A stretch of 57,156 nt of DNA from a virus, in the IMG/VR virus record IMGVR_UViG_3300036819_000112, positions 1 to 57,156 of that record, one strand, 5' to 3'. Both the position numbers and the translations under genes were made by a program. Below, one piece after another: positions 583 to 45,028 of the stretch (position 1 is its first letter; each line of letters starts with the position of its first letter). A model generated the notes under the pieces. It ran no database searches, was not told the origin of the DNA, and was given only the letters and a program-made list of their open reading frames with translations.

Positions 583-1886
583 TGTCCTGGGCAATGGAGC
601 TCTCCCCGGCCGGGTTTGACGGCATGTTTGCCGACCTCGCGATGATGGATCGCAAGACCGGTCGGGCCTACCTCCAGCTGCTCGGCTACCTCCGGCGCTT
701 CGGCTCAGTCCCGTCCGGAGAGCGCGCGCTTGCCAGCGTGCTGGGGGTGACGGTCGGGTTCCTTCGCGAAGTCGCCTGGCCGCTGCTGGAAGACCGCCTG
801 GAGCTTTCGGCGGACGGACGGCGGTATTCCGATCCCGACGTTACAGCGAGCCGGCCGCGGCGCCCGGTCCGTGAGCCAACGGACGATCGGATCAAAAATC
901 AGCAGCAGCAGGATGCCGCCAAAGCCAGATGGGCGAAGCAACGCGCCGCCGGGGAGCCGCTACAAACAGATGCGCAGGCGCATCCTGAAACGCATGCGGA
1001 GCGCATGCGATCTGATGCGGAAACGCATGTGATTTCAATGCGCGGCGCATCGGAAATGCATGCGGAAACGCATTCCACTGATGCGCCCAGCGCATCGTCG
1101 AGCGCATCCGGCGCATATGCGCTCGCGCATGCGCGCGCTCTCTCTCCCTCTGATACTTCTCTTGCTGAATCCCCTGATAATTGGAGAGATTCTTTGGGAG
1201 AGAGAGAGGACGCGCTCATGCGCAGCGATGCGTCGGCGCATGCGGAGCGCATGCGATCTGATGCGTCCGCGCATGCGTCAAGCGATGCGCCCGCCCCCGA
1301 AGCGCATCGTGCATCGGGACGCAAACAGCAGCCGCCGAGTCGCCCGAGTATCCCAATCCCACCGGACTGGAGGCCGACACCGGAGGACGCGTTGGCTGCT
1401 CGGGGCCGGGGCTACGATCCTGACGAACTCGCGCAAGGCTTCCTCGACTGGTATCTCGGCCGAGACGAGGTCAGCCCTGACTGGAATGCGAAGTTCCGCA
1501 CATGGATGCGGCGGGAGAAGAGTCCTCCCAACAGCAATCTCCAGCAGGGCACCATCAAGCTGCCGATCGAGGGCGGCGTTTCTGACGAGGCAGATGATCC
1601 CGCCGCGGCCGTGGGGGATGGCGTGGAGGCGCAATGGGTTCGCGCATCGCGCCAGCTCAAAGCTGAAATCGGCCCTGTCCCGTACCGGACCTGGATGTCG
1701 AAGGCCGCCATCGTCGGGATAGAGGATGGCGAGGCCACAATCAGCCTGCCCTCGACGTTCCTGCGCGACTATGTCCGCACCAATTTCCTCGATCGGCTGA
1801 CGGCATTCTGGCGGGCGGACAATCCCACGGTCCTGCGGGTCCAGGCTGTGGTGGCATCCGTTGAACGTCGGACGGCAGGTGGCTGA
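582..1886 (+). CDS. Replication initiator-like protein with C-terminal DnaA-N-like domain
   Basis: 434 aa. The ATG at 582 has a GGGGGAGG ribosome site six bases upstream; the TTG at 579 is less likely. Residues 1-85 resemble the winged-helix N-terminus of phage replication proteins (DUF1376 type). Residues about 128-244 are low-complexity (Ala/Ser/His/Met/Arg) and are encoded by the ATGCG repeat array. Residues 260-310 (PPDWRPTPEDALAARG, then FLDWYLGRD...WNAKFRTWMRRE) match a segment common in phage O/DnaT-like proteins. The last about 80 residues (WVRASRQLKAEIGPVPYRTW ... LPSTFLRDYVRTNFLDRL) match the DnaA N-terminal domain, which in host DnaA contacts the helicase DnaB. No ATPase motifs are seen. 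The likely role is to bind the internal origin and recruit host helicase; this is inference. Confidence 0.75.
   Translation: MSWAMELSPAGFDGMFADLAMMDRKTGRAYLQLLGYLRRFGSVPSGERALASVLGVTVGFLREVAWPLLEDRLELSADGRRYSDPDVTASRPRRPVREPTDDRIKNQQQQDAAKARWAKQRAAGEPLQTDAQAHPETHAERMRSDAETHVISMRGASEMHAETHSTDAPSASSSASGAYALAHARALSPSDTSLAESPDNWRDSLGEREDALMRSDASAHAERMRSDASAHASSDAPAPEAHRASGRKQQPPSRPSIPIPPDWRPTPEDALAARGRGYDPDELAQGFLDWYLGRDEVSPDWNAKFRTWMRREKSPPNSNLQQGTIKLPIEGGVSDEADDPAAAVGDGVEAQWVRASRQLKAEIGPVPYRTWMSKAAIVGIEDGEATISLPSTFLRDYVRTNFLDRLTAFWRADNPTVLRVQAVVASVERRTAGG
964..1310. repeat. ATGCG/CGCAT iteron array, candidate replication origin
   Basis: I count about 30 copies of ATGCG or its complement CGCAT between 970 and 1307, many fused as GCATGC palindromes and mostly spaced 9-14 bp, close to one helical turn. 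A 29-bp block at 991-1019 recurs exactly at 1237-1265. Copies stop between 1134 and 1217, where an AT-richer segment lies. Iterons inside the initiator gene resemble the lambda O/ori arrangement. Confidence 0.75.
1138..1206. other. AT-richer island bounded by an 11-bp inverted repeat, candidate unwinding element
   Basis: The arm CTCTCTCTCCC (1138-1148) is the exact reverse complement of GGGAGAGAGAG (1196-1206). The 47 bp between are much AT-richer than the surroundings and free of ATGCG motifs, which flank it on both sides. Iterons flanking an easily melted segment is the normal architecture of a theta origin. The function is inferred. Confidence 0.55.
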
Positions 1887-2584: not shown

Positions 2585-3030
2585 GAAAAGACCTGCGCCC
2601 GCTCTATCCGCCGGACTGGCCAGAGATCAGCCAGCGCATCCGCTTCGACGTCGCCCAGGGTCGCTGCATGCGCTGCCGCCGCCCGCATCTCACCCGCATC
2701 CTCTGCCTGCCGGATGGCCGATGGGAAGATTTTGACCAGAGGTGTTGGTACGATGGGGACGGAGCCATGGTCCCCGCGCCTTCCGTGCTGGAGGTCGATC
2801 GCAGCGGCCATGTCACCCGGGTGGTGCTGGCCACGGCCCATCGCGACCATGATCCCGCCAACAGCGACGATCCAAACTTCGCCGCCTGGTGCCAGCGCTG
2901 TCATCTCCTGCACGACGCCGCCCATCATCGGGCACAGCGCCAGATCACACTCCGGCTTCGGTGGGCGATCGGGGACCTGTTCTCGGGCCTTTACTCGCTG
3001 GCCGGATATCCCAGGAACGGGGCGCCATGA
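2551..3030 (+). CDS. HNH-endonuclease-like protein with unclear start
   Basis: The frame encodes RPLYPPDWPEISQRIRFD, then CMRC, then a central TAHRDHDP and CQRCHLLHDAAHH. This is the zinc-binding HNH arrangement seen in small phage HNH proteins that nick or cut DNA. Conserved coding begins near 2593, but no ATG, GTG or TTG exists between the upstream stop (2548-2550) and ATG 2668. Starting at 2668 would remove the first cysteine of CMRC. A good GTG start exists at 2547 in another frame (VTANGAGGSNASKK), and a +1 shift at the AAGAAAAG run near 2583-2590 would join the two. So this is a translational shift, an unusual start, or a one-base lesion or assembly error. Its 3' end overlaps the Dam-type gene as ATGA. 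Confidence 0.6.
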   Translation, partial: PRTGREAPTPVRKDLRPLYPPDWPEISQRIRFDVAQGRCMRCRRPHLTRILCLPDGRWEDFDQRCWYDGDGAMVPAPSVLEVDRSGHVTRVVLATAHRDHDPANSDDPNFAAWCQRCHLLHDAAHHRAQRQITLRLRWAIGDLFSGLYSLAGYPRNGAP

Positions 3031-3881
3031 CCGGGCCATCACGGCCGCTGCTGCGCTGGCATGGTGGAAAGTGGCGCTTGGCTCCGTGGATCGTAGCGCA
3101 CCTTCCCCGCCATCGTGTTTACGTCGAGCCGTTCGGTGGCGCGGCGAGCGTCTTGCTCCGCAAACCCCGCTCCTATGCTGAAATCTACAACGACCTCGAC
3201 GGCGATGTGGTGAATCTGTTCCAGGTCCTGCGGTCCGGTCGCGCCGGCGAACTCGTCCGGGCTTTGGAGTTGACGCCGTTCGCAAGAGCCGAATTCGAGG
3301 GTGCCTACGAACGATCCGATGATCCGGTGGAGGAGGCTCGTAGCCTCATCGTGCGCTCATTCATGGGGTTCGGTTCCGACGGGTTCAACCGAGCCGTGCG
3401 AACCGGGTTTCGATCGACGTCCAATCGGAGCGGCACCACGCCGGCGCACGATTGGGCGAATTACCCCACGGCGCTACGGGCGATCATTAAGCGCCTGAAC
3501 GGGGTGGTCATCGAGCGGCGGCCGGCGCTGCAGGTGATGCTTCAACACAACGATGTAGACGCCCTGCACTACCTCGACCCACCCTATATGCCGGAAACCC
3601 GGTCGGAGAAGAGCCGCAAGACGGGCGAGCGCTATCATGCCTACGCGCACGAGATGACGCCGGCCGATCATGCAGCGCTGCTGGCTAGCCTTCCGAACAT
3701 CCGTGGTGCCGTGGTCATCAGCGGGTACGCAACTCGGCTCTACGACGAGGCGCTGGTGGGCTGGCGGCGGCTGACGATCGCGGCGCTGGCGGACGGTGCG
3801 GCAAAACGAACCGAGGTGCTTTGGCTCAATCCCAGAGCAGCAGATCAAATCGCAGGCGAGTTGGAGTTCGGCTCGCCATGA
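3027..3881 (+). CDS. D12-class (Dam-like) adenine-N6 DNA methyltransferase
   Basis: 284 aa, normal for the alpha-group D12 family that methylates adenine. Residues 6-12 (LLRWHGGK) and 34-47 (YVEPFGGAASVLLRK) are the SAM-binding motifs. NDLDGDVVNLFQVLR follows, and the catalytic DPPY motif is in YLDPPYMPETRSEKS. The ATG at 3027 overlaps the HNH stop, and the 3' end overlaps the next gene as ATGA, so it is translated within the early operon. With no partner nuclease it is probably an orphan methylase, protecting phage DNA or altering host methylation-sensitive promoters. Its recognition site cannot be read from sequence. Confidence 0.9.
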   Translation: MTGPSRPLLRWHGGKWRLAPWIVAHLPRHRVYVEPFGGAASVLLRKPRSYAEIYNDLDGDVVNLFQVLRSGRAGELVRALELTPFARAEFEGAYERSDDPVEEARSLIVRSFMGFGSDGFNRAVRTGFRSTSNRSGTTPAHDWANYPTALRAIIKRLNGVVIERRPALQVMLQHNDVDALHYLDPPYMPETRSEKSRKTGERYHAYAHEMTPADHAALLASLPNIRGAVVISGYATRLYDEALVGWRRLTIAALADGAAKRTEVLWLNPRAADQIAGELEFGSP

Positions 3882-7414: not shown

Positions 7415-8341
7415 ATGACCAGCGCCCTAGCAGTGCCTGTACGCTCGTCACCTCCCGCTCAGCGGCTGGATACAACCGATGACGCGATGGTTGCACTCTG
7501 GCTTGGGAGATACACCCGTTCGGCTCACACCAGGCGCAGCTACAAAGCGGACGTGGATGCATTCCGCGCTTTTGTCGCCAAACCATTGCCCACGGTCACC
7601 GGGAGCGACATCAATGCATTTGCGTCGAGCCTCGGCCACCTGGCGCCCGCGTCGCAGAGTCGCCGACTGTCGGCAGTCAAGTCGCTGATCGGACTGCTGC
7701 ACCGCCAGGGCCTGATGCCCTTCGATGTCGCCGCGGCGATCCAGCTCCCAGCGATCAAGGACACCTTGATCGAGCGGATCATGACGGAGGAGGCGGTGCA
7801 GCGCCTGCTCTGGGCGGCCGAGGCGCCGCCGCGGTTCTCCCGGATAAACAATCGCACAACGCGATGGGCCAAGCGCAACGCGGCGCTGTTGCGGTTGCTT
7901 TATGGTGCTGGTTTGCGAATCAGCGAGGCGTGCGGCTTGTGCTGGCGCGATCTAACGCCCCGTGATCAGGCCGGCCAGCTGAACGTGCTGGGCAAAGGCG
8001 GCAAGACGCGCCCGGTGCTGCTGACCAAATCACTTTGGGACCGACTCGCCGAGTTGCGAGGCAGTGCCGGCCCGGGCGATTCAGTTTTCAAGTCGCGCGA
8101 AGGTGGCGCATTGGCACCATCGCAGGTCGATCGGATTATGAAAACTGCGGTAAAACGCGCCCAACTACCGCCGGCGGTGTCAGCTCACTGGCTCCGGCAC
8201 GCCCACGCAAGTCATGCCCTCGATCGCGGCGCTCCGGTACATGTCGTGCAAACGACGCTCGGCCATGCGTCGCTGACCACGACCACTCGTTACACTCATG
8301 CGCGGCCTGGCGACAGTAGCGCTAAGTATCTCACGGCATAG
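7415..8341 (+). CDS. XerC/XerD-like tyrosine recombinase
   Basis: 308 aa, normal for Xer proteins. The N-terminal SAM-like core-binding domain (residues 20-110) precedes the catalytic domain. Catalytic residues are visible: Arg in GAGLRISEACGL, Lys in GKGGKTRPV, HWLRHAHASH, GHASLTTTTRYTH with the nucleophilic tyrosine. It lies second in the late region, far from the phage-type integrase at 43843. It may resolve genome multimers or act on a dif-like site; the role is inferred. Confidence 0.85.
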   Translation: MTSALAVPVRSSPPAQRLDTTDDAMVALWLGRYTRSAHTRRSYKADVDAFRAFVAKPLPTVTGSDINAFASSLGHLAPASQSRRLSAVKSLIGLLHRQGLMPFDVAAAIQLPAIKDTLIERIMTEEAVQRLLWAAEAPPRFSRINNRTTRWAKRNAALLRLLYGAGLRISEACGLCWRDLTPRDQAGQLNVLGKGGKTRPVLLTKSLWDRLAELRGSAGPGDSVFKSREGGALAPSQVDRIMKTAVKRAQLPPAVSAHWLRHAHASHALDRGAPVHVVQTTLGHASLTTTTRYTHARPGDSSAKYLTA

Positions 8342-8350
8342 GTTTCATTC

Positions 8351-9961
8351 GTGGCAGCAGGCTTCAAGACAGGCGGTCGAGTGAAAGGTTCCCTCGACAA
8401 AGGACCGAGGAAGCGGAGGTCCTCTGTGTCTGTAGATGCACATGTCACTACCAGAGTAGTGGCAGCGGGGGCGGGGGCGCCCCCCACCGCGCCCATTATT
8501 CCAGCCTCGCGCCCGGGCGCGCGCGCGAGGACGTCACTGAAAGCCGCTGCAGCGGCCGGTTTGCCGCCACCAGAGGCCGGTTCCATTCTTCCCGTCTCGC
8601 AAGCGGCGGCGGACCCGTCGTTCCCGAAATACCGCACCATGGCAACCGACAAGTTGGTGCCCTACGCGAACAATGCCCGTACCCATTCGAAGGCGCAGAT
8701 TGCCAAGATAGCCGCCAGCATTAAGGAGTTTGGCTTCACCAACCCCGTCCTCACTGACGGCAAGCGTGGCATCATCGCCGGTCACGGCCGAGTCCTTGCG
8801 GCACAGATGCTGGACATGGTCTCGGTGCCGATAATCGAGCTGTCCCACCTGAGCGTGGCCCAGCGGCGAGCTTACATTCTTGCGGACAACCGACTAGCGC
8901 TTGACGCTGGATGGGACGATGAACTGCTGGCGCTTGAGCTCGGTGCGTTGCGCGCTGATGGCTTTGACCTCTCGCTTACCGGTTTTGATTTCAACGAGAT
9001 CGGAATGCTGCTTGGCTCATCGGAGGGTCTTACCGATCCTGACGACGCACCGCCGGCCCCGTCGCAGCCCGTATCGATTGCGGGCGATGTGTGGCTGCTC
9101 GGCGGGCACAGGCTGGCCTGTGGGGACTCTACGGATGCGCGGGTGGTCGCGGCTGCGCTGGGCGGCGCGAAGCCGCATTTGATGGTCACTGATCCGCCCT
9201 ATGGCGTGGGCTACGACGCGAACTGGCGAAATGAGCGCGTGCGGCAGGACGGTTCTCCCGTGGGTGGGCGAGCTGTCGGTAAAGTGGCGAACGACGGGGA
9301 TGCCGACTGGCGCGAGGCGTGGGCGCTGTTTCCCGGCTCGGTCGCTTATGTCTGGCATGCCGGCCTTCATGGAGAGCAGGTGATCAGCAGCCTGGTGGCG
9401 AACGGCTTCAGGATTCGAGCGCAGATCATCTGGGTCAAGACTCGTGCGGTGATCTCGCGGGGTCACTACCATTGGCAGCATGAACCTGCGCTCTACAGCG
9501 TACGCGAGGGGGAAGACGATCAGTGGCGCTTCGTCCCCGAGCACGAGGTGGTCGATTACTCTGTCCGCGAGGGCGAAACCGGGCAATGGCAAGGCGGCCG
9601 CAAGCAGTCGACCGTTTGGAACATTGAGCACATCAAATCCGAAACCGGCCACAGCACCCAGAAGCCGGTCGAGTGCATGCGGCGTCCTATCGAAAACAAT
9701 TCATCTCCCGGGCATGCGGTCTACGACCCCTTCGCCGGCTCCGGTACCACCATCATAGCCGCTGAGATGACCGGCCGCGCCTGCCATGCGATCGAACTCA
9801 GCCCCGCCTATGTCGACGTCGCTATTCTCCGTTGGCAGGCGTTCACCGGCAAAGATGCTGTCCATGGCGAAGACGGACGCACTTTTGCCTCCATCGGTCT
9901 CGAACGGAGCGTACCTCCGCAAGCCGCCCGCACCCGGACCCGCGTCAAGGTTGAAGCGTAG
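8351..9961 (+). CDS. ParB/Srx-like domain fused to beta-group DNA methyltransferase
   Basis: 536 aa. After about 95 disordered residues, residues 96-215 form a ParB/Srx-type domain (KLVPYANNARTHSKAQIAKI, GIIAGHGRVLAAQML, RRAYILADNRLAL). Residues about 230-520 are a DNA methylase with DPPYGVGYDANW before DPFAGSGTTIIAAEMTGR. Catalytic motif before SAM motif defines the beta group, and DPPY suggests adenine-N6 (SPPY would suggest cytosine-N4). The region between is the target-recognition domain. Such ParB-methylase fusions are frequent in prophages next to terminase genes, as here. The translation start is uncertain; GTG 8351 has an open upstream. Confidence 0.88.
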   Translation: MAAGFKTGGRVKGSLDKGPRKRRSSVSVDAHVTTRVVAAGAGAPPTAPIIPASRPGARARTSLKAAAAAGLPPPEAGSILPVSQAAADPSFPKYRTMATDKLVPYANNARTHSKAQIAKIAASIKEFGFTNPVLTDGKRGIIAGHGRVLAAQMLDMVSVPIIELSHLSVAQRRAYILADNRLALDAGWDDELLALELGALRADGFDLSLTGFDFNEIGMLLGSSEGLTDPDDAPPAPSQPVSIAGDVWLLGGHRLACGDSTDARVVAAALGGAKPHLMVTDPPYGVGYDANWRNERVRQDGSPVGGRAVGKVANDGDADWREAWALFPGSVAYVWHAGLHGEQVISSLVANGFRIRAQIIWVKTRAVISRGHYHWQHEPALYSVREGEDDQWRFVPEHEVVDYSVREGETGQWQGGRKQSTVWNIEHIKSETGHSTQKPVECMRRPIENNSSPGHAVYDPFAGSGTTIIAAEMTGRACHAIELSPAYVDVAILRWQAFTGKDAVHGEDGRTFASIGLERSVPPQAARTRTRVKVEA

Positions 9962-10456: not shown

Positions 10457-10933
10457 ATGGCGGGGCGAAAGGCTTTCGTGCCGACCGATGAGCAGCGCGC
10501 CCGGGTGCGATCCATGGCCTCCGCCGGCATCGATGAAGGCACGTCCGGAAACGGCAGGAACGGTGGCGCGACGTTGGCGGAAATCTGCGCGGTCATCGAC
10601 GTCAGTGAAAAGACGCTGCGGCGGGCGTTCAAAACCGAGCTGAAGACAGCGTTCTATCTTGCGAAAGACCAGATGCGTCGGAGCCTGTTCCAGCAGGGCA
10701 CCGGGCAACAAGAGCGACCGGAGGAGCGAGACGAGCGTGGCAGGGTAATCCGTCCGCGGCAGCGATACGTCCCACCCAACCCTACCGCGACGATCGCCTG
10801 GCTGGAGTTCTACGGCGGCGCGGTGAAAACCCAACGCACGGAACACACCGGCCAGGTCAACACACGGAACCTTACGGATGAACAGCGCGACGCTCGAATC
10901 GCTGAGCTCCTCCGTAAAGCAGGAGCTGCTTGA
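10457..10933 (+). CDS. terS: Small terminase subunit (putative)
   Basis: 158 aa, the usual length for TerS. A helix-turn-helix lies at residues about 35-60 (ATLAEICAVIDVSEKTLRRAF), followed by a helical oligomerisation region and a charged C-terminus that would contact the large subunit. The gene overlaps terL by 56 bp. TerS selects the packaging site; no cos or pac site could be recognised. Confidence 0.75.
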   Translation: MAGRKAFVPTDEQRARVRSMASAGIDEGTSGNGRNGGATLAEICAVIDVSEKTLRRAFKTELKTAFYLAKDQMRRSLFQQGTGQQERPEERDERGRVIRPRQRYVPPNPTATIAWLEFYGGAVKTQRTEHTGQVNTRNLTDEQRDARIAELLRKAGAA

Positions 10934-43842: not shown

Positions 43843-44826
43843 TCAATCCGCTGGTTTCAGCGCCTTTTTTGTATTTCCTGTCCATCGCAAAACCGCCGCC
43901 TCTGCTAGCCGTTCCTGATCGGTCCCGGCAGTATAGAGTTGCAACATCGCAAGACTCCTGTGCCCGGTGATCGCGCCAATCTCGTGAAGTGTACAGCCGC
44001 ACTGCGCGAGATTGATCGCGGCTAGCTTTCGTAGTCCATGGATGTTCCGATGCGGCGGAAAGCCCTCCAACTTTGCCAGGGCATCACCCAATTGCCGGGA
44101 CAGGTTCGTGACTTGCCACGGCCTGTCGAACTTGTTGACCAGGATCATCGTTGCCGCTGCCTCGGCTCGCCATGCATCCAGTTCTGCCTTCAGCGCAGGA
44201 TGGACGGGTATCACTAACGCCGCGCCCGTCTTGCTCTGCCGGAGTCGCAGGCTTCGCCCATCATAGGCTGACCAAGGTAATCGGCACAGATCGCCCCGGC
44301 GCTGGCCGCTGTAGAGCGCCAGCACGACCGGGCGCCGCAAATGCTCCGGAAGTTGGCGCATCGCCTGTTCGGCCTCTGCGGGCGTCCAGGCGGGGAGGTG
44401 GCCGCCTTTCAGTCGCTTCATGCGCAGCGTCGGGGACATCTTTAGCCAGCCGTTTTCGACGGCCCATCCGAATAGTGCCGACGCGGTGCGCACGAAGCCT
44501 GTGGAAGCGCCGTTGCCTTTCGCTTGAGCTAGTGCGTTGCGGATGTCCGTAATCTGCTTGCGCTCAATCCGCGATGCCTGGACGTGCTCCATGCCTACCA
44601 GTGGCCGAAGGTACGTGAGGTAGTTCGCTTGGGTGCTCGGCGCGAGCGCGCGCCACTCCGGACTGCGTTCCCACGCGGCGATGAGTTCGCCCATAGTCTC
44701 GCCTTTCGAGCGGACGCGCCTCGGCTGATATGGCGGATAGCGGTAGCTTCGCGTGGTCCCGTCAGCTAGGACGCGGTGGACTACCCTTTCGGCCTTGCGC
44801 GAGGATTTTCTGGACAACGGCGGCAC
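43843..44826 (-). CDS. int: Tyrosine-type phage integrase
   Basis: 327 aa from GTG 44826; the frame is open to TTG 44877, overlapping the excisionase-like gene by 65-116 bp. Arm- and core-binding parts (residues about 45-140) precede the catalytic domain with Arg in SGQRRGDLC, Lys in RQSKTGAAL, HGLRKLAAINLA, GHRSLAMLQLYT. It integrates or, with the excisionase, excises the genome at attP. It is the last gene of the leftward early operon. Confidence 0.88.
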   Translation of the reverse strand: MPPLSRKSSRKAERVVHRVLADGTTRSYRYPPYQPRRVRSKGETMGELIAAWERSPEWRALAPSTQANYLTYLRPLVGMEHVQASRIERKQITDIRNALAQAKGNGASTGFVRTASALFGWAVENGWLKMSPTLRMKRLKGGHLPAWTPAEAEQAMRQLPEHLRRPVVLALYSGQRRGDLCRLPWSAYDGRSLRLRQSKTGAALVIPVHPALKAELDAWRAEAAATMILVNKFDRPWQVTNLSRQLGDALAKLEGFPPHRNIHGLRKLAAINLAQCGCTLHEIGAITGHRSLAMLQLYTAGTDQERLAEAAVLRWTGNTKKALKPAD

Positions 44827-45028
44827 TCGCTGCTCTTGGATCAGTGGACGATGTTCCCCCGCTAAACGCGGCGTCAAGGGCGAGCCGGTCCCATCGTGGG
44901 GAGCGTACGCCGAGAGTGTGATCGGGTGCTGGAATGCGACCCTGCTTCACCAGACGGGGCAGGGCATCGACCCGCACGCTTATGTAGGCGGCGGTCGATT
45001 CGGCGTTCAGCCATCGTGCGTCACCCAT
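44762..45028 (-). CDS. Excisionase-like small DNA-binding protein
   Basis: 88 aa from ATG 45028 with a GAGGGGAGG ribosome site. WLNAESTAAYISVRVDALPR resembles the MerR/excisionase helix-turn-helix. It overlaps int, as xis genes commonly do. Confidence 0.65.
   Translation of the reverse strand: MGDARWLNAESTAAYISVRVDALPRLVKQGRIPAPDHTLGVRSPRWDRLALDAAFSGGTSSTDPRAASAAVVQKILAQGRKGSPPRPS

Follow-up and report, generated by a model that had tools for sequence, protein, structure and literature searches.

A putative replication origin of a temperate phage within the gene of its own initiator, in a stretch coding for a low-complexity linker

The replication origin of phage lambda lies inside gene O, and Stx-phage variants with six iterons have been described (PMC7466680). 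In the lambda sequence (L551), four 18-bp dyad iterons, spaced 20–24 bp apart, all lie to one side of a tract with 78% AT. In SPP1, oriL lies inside gene 38, so that direct repeats and an AT-rich unwinding element are found in the gene of the origin-binding protein, and the phage encodes its own loader and DnaB-type helicase (PMC6316719). Domain I of Escherichia coli DnaA dimerises and contacts DnaB (PMC5448010). In the open-access literature, we found these lambda, Stx-phage, and SPP1 precedents, and no description of the CT/GA frame or the DnaA-domain-I tail reported here.

The window analysed here, 57,156 nucleotides in length, is one whole IMG/VR virus record and belongs to a temperate phage that carries genes for integrase, terminase, and portal proteins; contigs of this database are partly fragments, and their host assignments are inferences. 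Analysis of its repeats and encoded domains makes it likely that the phage replicates from an origin within the gene of its own putative initiator (582–1886), in the segment coding for a low-complexity linker. Similar to lambda, repeated iteron-like sites (30 cores), an AT-richer tract (an island of 62% AT), and an inverted repeat are located inside a putative initiator gene, and to this extent the earlier proposal, made in a sequence-only reading, of a lambda-type architecture with far more sites holds. Membership of the lambda type as such is not supported: the lambda iterons are 18 bp long and one-sided, whereas the window has 5-bp cores every ~11 bp, forming 24 units on both sides of the island; lambda O has no CTCTCT/GAGAGA arms and its inverted repeat follows the AT-rich tract, whereas in the window the arms frame the island; and the window protein, which ends in DnaA domain I, has no PHROG or Pfam match to the lambda O family. 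The proposed origin has the lambda logic, but iteron form, arrangement, and initiator homology place it outside the lambda type.

Comparison with SPP1, made from its published description alone, revealed that relatives of the window arrangement also adjoin DnaB; SPP1 has a phage DnaB-type helicase, whereas a search of the whole record found no DnaB_C gene, and the record has no DnaB helicase of its own. With the DnaA family, the window protein shares domain I but not the AAA+ and DnaA-box-binding domains (no Pfam match), and no TTWTNCACA DnaA box is present anywhere in the window. Prophage replication proteins with DUF1376 and DnaT domains also have a DnaT-like region after a repeat-bearing linker, to which two of them (L562 and L563) add DnaA_N, but the N-terminus of the window protein is not recognisably DUF1376 and the iteron is different.

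The putative initiator and its phage

The putative replication initiator gene (582–1886, + strand) encodes 434 amino acids from the ATG at 582, or 435 from the TTG at 579, and a Shine-Dalgarno-like GGAGGTGA (571–578, +), read from the sequence, precedes the ATG. Its start overlaps by one base with the stop codon of a GcrA-family gene directly upstream (7–582, +; Pfam GcrA E=1.4e-14). The C-terminal part (residues 351–412; 1629–1814, +) matches DnaA domain I (DnaA_N, PF11638; E=2.7e-13, 49.8 bits vs. a cut-off of 24.6) and is closest to the N-termini of chromosomal DnaA proteins of Acetobacterales, with 36–45% identity. The equivalents of Trp6 and Phe46 of E. coli DnaA are kept, and Glu21, which contacts DnaB, is replaced by Pro (for the roles of these residues, see PMC5448010). 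Residues 259–314 (1353–1520, +) resemble the DnaT DNA-binding region (Pfam DnaT E=0.0096, below the cut-off), with relatives in phage and Acetobacteraceae initiators at 26–46% identity. These replication-initiation domains agree with the earlier assignment of the array to an initiator gene. The N-terminal domain gave no Pfam match and an hhalign probability of 2% to a DUF1376-like set, and its structure models were of low confidence, too poor for a structure search. Peptide-seed searches of viral contigs, genomes, phages, and plasmids found no whole-length or close relative of the protein; two matches in the phage collection were rejected as DnaA genes.

The best genome matches of the phage terminase are in Roseomonas-like genomes. 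Since the DnaA_N part is also near the DnaA of Acetobacterales, the host probably belongs to the same family as these genomes. The GC skew of the window has no clear turning point and is uninformative. The record also contains two tyrosine-integrase-like genes (7415–8341, +; 43843–44877, −), a ParB-like nuclease domain fused to a DNA methyltransferase (8351–9961; phrog_498 and ParB-like families), and a gene for a D12-class (Dam-like) adenine methyltransferase (3009–3881), 1.1 kb from the putative origin.

The iteron array and the framed island

The linker contains exactly 30 copies of ATGCG/CGCAT at 970–1307, in line with the roughly 30 counted before. Block 1 (970–1133) holds 19 copies in 16 units with a best period of 11.2 bp, and block 2 (1218–1307) holds 11 copies in 8 units with a best period of 10.8 bp; several copies overlap as CGCATGCG, and the units, counted after merging overlapping copies, have a mean spacing of about 11 bp, approximately one helix turn. 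ATGCG-N4-CGCAT dyads are common, and alignment of the sites on their cores showed that information is mainly held in the 5-bp core and in its partner half-site, 9 bp further on, while the flanks have a weak preference for C at −3 and are otherwise near random. A 29-bp exact repeat (991–1019 and 1237–1265), present where it had been placed, sits within a 39-bp repeat of 90% identity copied across the island; a GATC is located in each copy of this repeated stretch, at 1009 and 1255. Despite this one copied stretch, the near-random core flanks disfavour a minisatellite origin of the array. A pattern scan for GCGCATGCG-N4-GATGCG was discarded, its matches being mostly chance.

Of all 5-mers, ATGCG alone attains 30 copies within 340 bp anywhere in the 57-kb window, and the next two overlap its array; across the window as a whole, ATGCG is not enriched (202 copies vs. 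252 ± 14 in shuffles). When the peptide was recoded synonymously under phage codon usage, 9.5 ± 2.2 cores remained (maximum 18 in 5000 trials), and codon shuffling left 5.8 ± 2.1 (maximum 14 in 5000 trials). The cores are read in all three reading frames of the gene. The synonymous null, the use of several frames, and the reading of one iteron as different peptides in related initiators (described below) support the earlier suggestion that the pattern is carried, and selected, in the DNA rather than in the peptide.

The two blocks flank a 47-bp island on both sides (1149–1195), a candidate DNA unwinding element. Its GC content is 38%, compared with 64.5% for the gene, which is the lowest in the gene and within the lowest 0.13% of the window; the island is AT-richer, not strongly AT-rich. 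It forms the loop of an exact 11-bp inverted repeat, with the left CT arm CTCTCTCTCCC at 1138–1148 and the right GA arm GGGAGAGAGAG at 1196–1206, as the first description of the repeats stopping around such an island had it. The single-strand fold of the window arms (1131–1215) has a z-score of −3.5. Arms folded as a hairpin gave z-scores from −2.4 to −5.1 in five of the six origins tested (window, L155, L316, L297, and L302), while the fold in L168 is weaker (−1.8); Rfam gave sub-threshold matches only. Because the island is GC-rich in several high-GC phages with the CT/GA frame, what stays constant in loci framed in this way may be the arms and not AT-richness.

Recurrence in other phages and in related initiators

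Two terminase relatives of the phage, L168 and L155, carry DnaT-type genes (DnaT match above the Pfam cut-off in L168, below it in L155) with CGTAAC/CGTCAC iterons about 11 bp apart in the linker. These iterons are directly followed by CTCTCTCT, an A- or AT-rich stretch, and AGAGAGAG, which is the frame of the window with other iterons. The frame was first seen in these two phages and the window and then tested in a larger set that includes none of the three. A scan of viral contigs for CTCTCTCT-N25–55-GAGAGAGA yielded at least 112 distinct places, and a composition-matched inverted repeat, CTTCTCCT..AGGAGAAG, served as the control with 116 places. Among the matches listed, a phased array (at least six copies of one 6-mer) adjoins 12 of 112 frames and none of 116 controls (Fisher p=1.4e-4), most of the CT/GA repeats found by the pattern being without an array. 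A DnaB-like gene lies within 4 kb of 11 of the 112 frames, again among the matches listed, vs. 2 of the 116 controls. In L302, L389, L377, L327, and L363, it is directly downstream of the array or framed gene, and Pfam DnaB_C was confirmed for the first three.

The iterons beside these frames differ in sequence: CGAAC (L302), GAACA (L389), GTTCC (L325), TGGTCA (L377), AGGTC (L319), CGTAAC (L297), and GGTTCC (L326), the last flanking its frame on either side, like the ATGCG array of the window. They are spaced 10–12 bp apart, and the pooled spacings of 14 such origins peak at 10–11 bp, with multiples of three making up 29%, no more than chance; nearly all of the 14 have their cores spread over two or three reading frames. 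The motif lists for single phages were picked by eye after the automatic array test, and the comparison of 12/112 with 0/116 is the only one free of that choice. As in the proposed CT/GA-framed origins, a replication-type gene of the window contains phased iterons next to an inverted repeat of the form CTCTCTC..GAGAGAG. The window has no adjoining DnaB-type helicase gene, a trait of some framed members only, and has DnaA domain I instead. L316 combines CGCATGCG iterons with the frame as in the window, but with four units only and in another protein. The frame also occurs with CGCATGCG in L537 (8016–9554, −), inside a gene with a ParB-like N-terminus (judged by eye) rather than DnaT or DUF1376; this locus, found by the octamer and the frame, was rejected as an iteron relative, and because its iterons are few the octamer common to it and the window may be chance. 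Searches of GenBank phages found no relative of four CT/GA-framed genes, and only 5 of 289 genomes of the alphaproteobacterial class contain the exact frame pattern. Beside the framed initiator gene of L345 lies a gene for a metallo-hydrolase weakly similar to the anti-Pycsar protein Apyc1 (8407–9168, −).

Initiators from alphaproteobacterial genomes, selected by domain alone, were compared for the persistence of DNA or protein. Several carry GTRAC iterons in the linker, which L416 reads as VT.., L568 as RD/DE/RH.., and L565 as NADVTRYSNAPVT. One alphaproteobacterial genome contains two near-identical copies, L562 and L563, built as a DUF1376-like domain, a GTRAC array, DnaT, and DnaA_N; in L562, DnaT and DnaA_N both exceed the Pfam cut-offs, and the domain order is that of the window. 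Comparison of the two copies revealed a change of RN to CD inside the array with a GTRAC iteron kept, a single example that carries no statistic. By a strict automatic criterion, phased arrays are present in 4 of 19 related initiators (15 lack them) compared with 37 of 700 other ORFs, so arrays are commoner in related initiators but not universal. Several further loci were observed. An Acetobacteraceae prophage initiator (L406, 1045–2193, −) has GTCGCACCATGCGAC palindromes every ~22–35 bp without the CT/GA frame, and an Achromobacter prophage gene (L215, 4352–5309) has nine ACTGCT copies, several of them 18–22 bp apart, and may contain a further origin of the embedded kind. Dense short-repeat arrays (CCGGACA, GGGACA, TTCGGG, GTAGC, and TGCGGAAGT) occur in further terminase relatives (L145, 7069–7254; L121, 981–1113; L127, 5424–5594; L118, 8299–8615; L184, 3602–3775; L141, 6197–6328), some beside genes for AAA-type ATPases and partly intergenic, possibly representing a second origin type.

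Alternative explanations and proposed mechanism

Plasmid and phage iterons frequently serve as control sites as well, and the gene upstream of the initiator is a GcrA-family regulator. The array could therefore be an operator, through which the initiator, or another regulator such as the adjacent GcrA-like protein, would act on transcription or copy number and not on the start of replication. We consider this unlikely: the array is situated 390 bp into the gene and not at a promoter, no sigma-70-like promoter was found in 1–2300 (a scan that alphaproteobacterial promoters may escape), and an operator would leave unexplained both the AT-rich CT/GA-framed island and its association with DnaB genes elsewhere. 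Binding by another phage protein, at a parS-like centromere or a DNA-packaging site, is still less probable. Plasmid centromeres, too, typically contain arrays of short phased sites, and the record has the ParB-like domain at 8351–9958 and a terminase gene at 10878; that domain, however, is fused to a DNA methyltransferase, while the array sits in a gene with DnaA and DnaT domains and a like arrangement is found beside DnaB in other phages.

Equally improbable is an array with no function in the DNA, being a low-complexity protein linker or a neutrally expanded minisatellite. The linker is of low complexity and one stretch of 29–39 bp is duplicated across the island, but two thirds of the cores are lost on synonymous recoding, the cores occupy all three frames, and their flanks are unconserved, unlike copies of one expanded unit. 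In addition, the spacing is helical and not codon-based in the window and 13 other phages, and one iteron is translated as VT.. or RD/DE.. in different related proteins.

Under the origin reading, copies of the initiator would bind the ATGCG half-sites, which would lie on one helix face because they recur every 11 bp, and would build up a nucleoprotein array to either side of the island at 1149–1195. Strain from this array would open the island, and at the CT/GA arms each strand could fold back as a hairpin and keep the bubble from closing. Host DnaB, or host DnaA, may then be recruited by the C-terminal DnaA domain I, a step proposed because the record is without a helicase of its own. More tentatively, CTCTCT-island-GAGAGA might be a general phage origin element, a fold-back or triplex-forming site for helicase loading that is independent of initiator sequence specificity and is kept while iterons and binding domains turn over; here, a captured host DnaA domain I would replace the phage helicase as the recruiter.

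The replication origins of most uncultured phages are unknown. The recurrence of the frame beside different iterons in unrelated phages hints at a general design of start sites. Should phased iterons next to a CT/GA-framed island prove to mark them, origins and their initiators could be found from sequence alone and tested on plasmids. Iteron specificity would then change while the CT/GA frame stays, and this phage would seem to have taken domain I of host DnaA to reach the host replication machinery.
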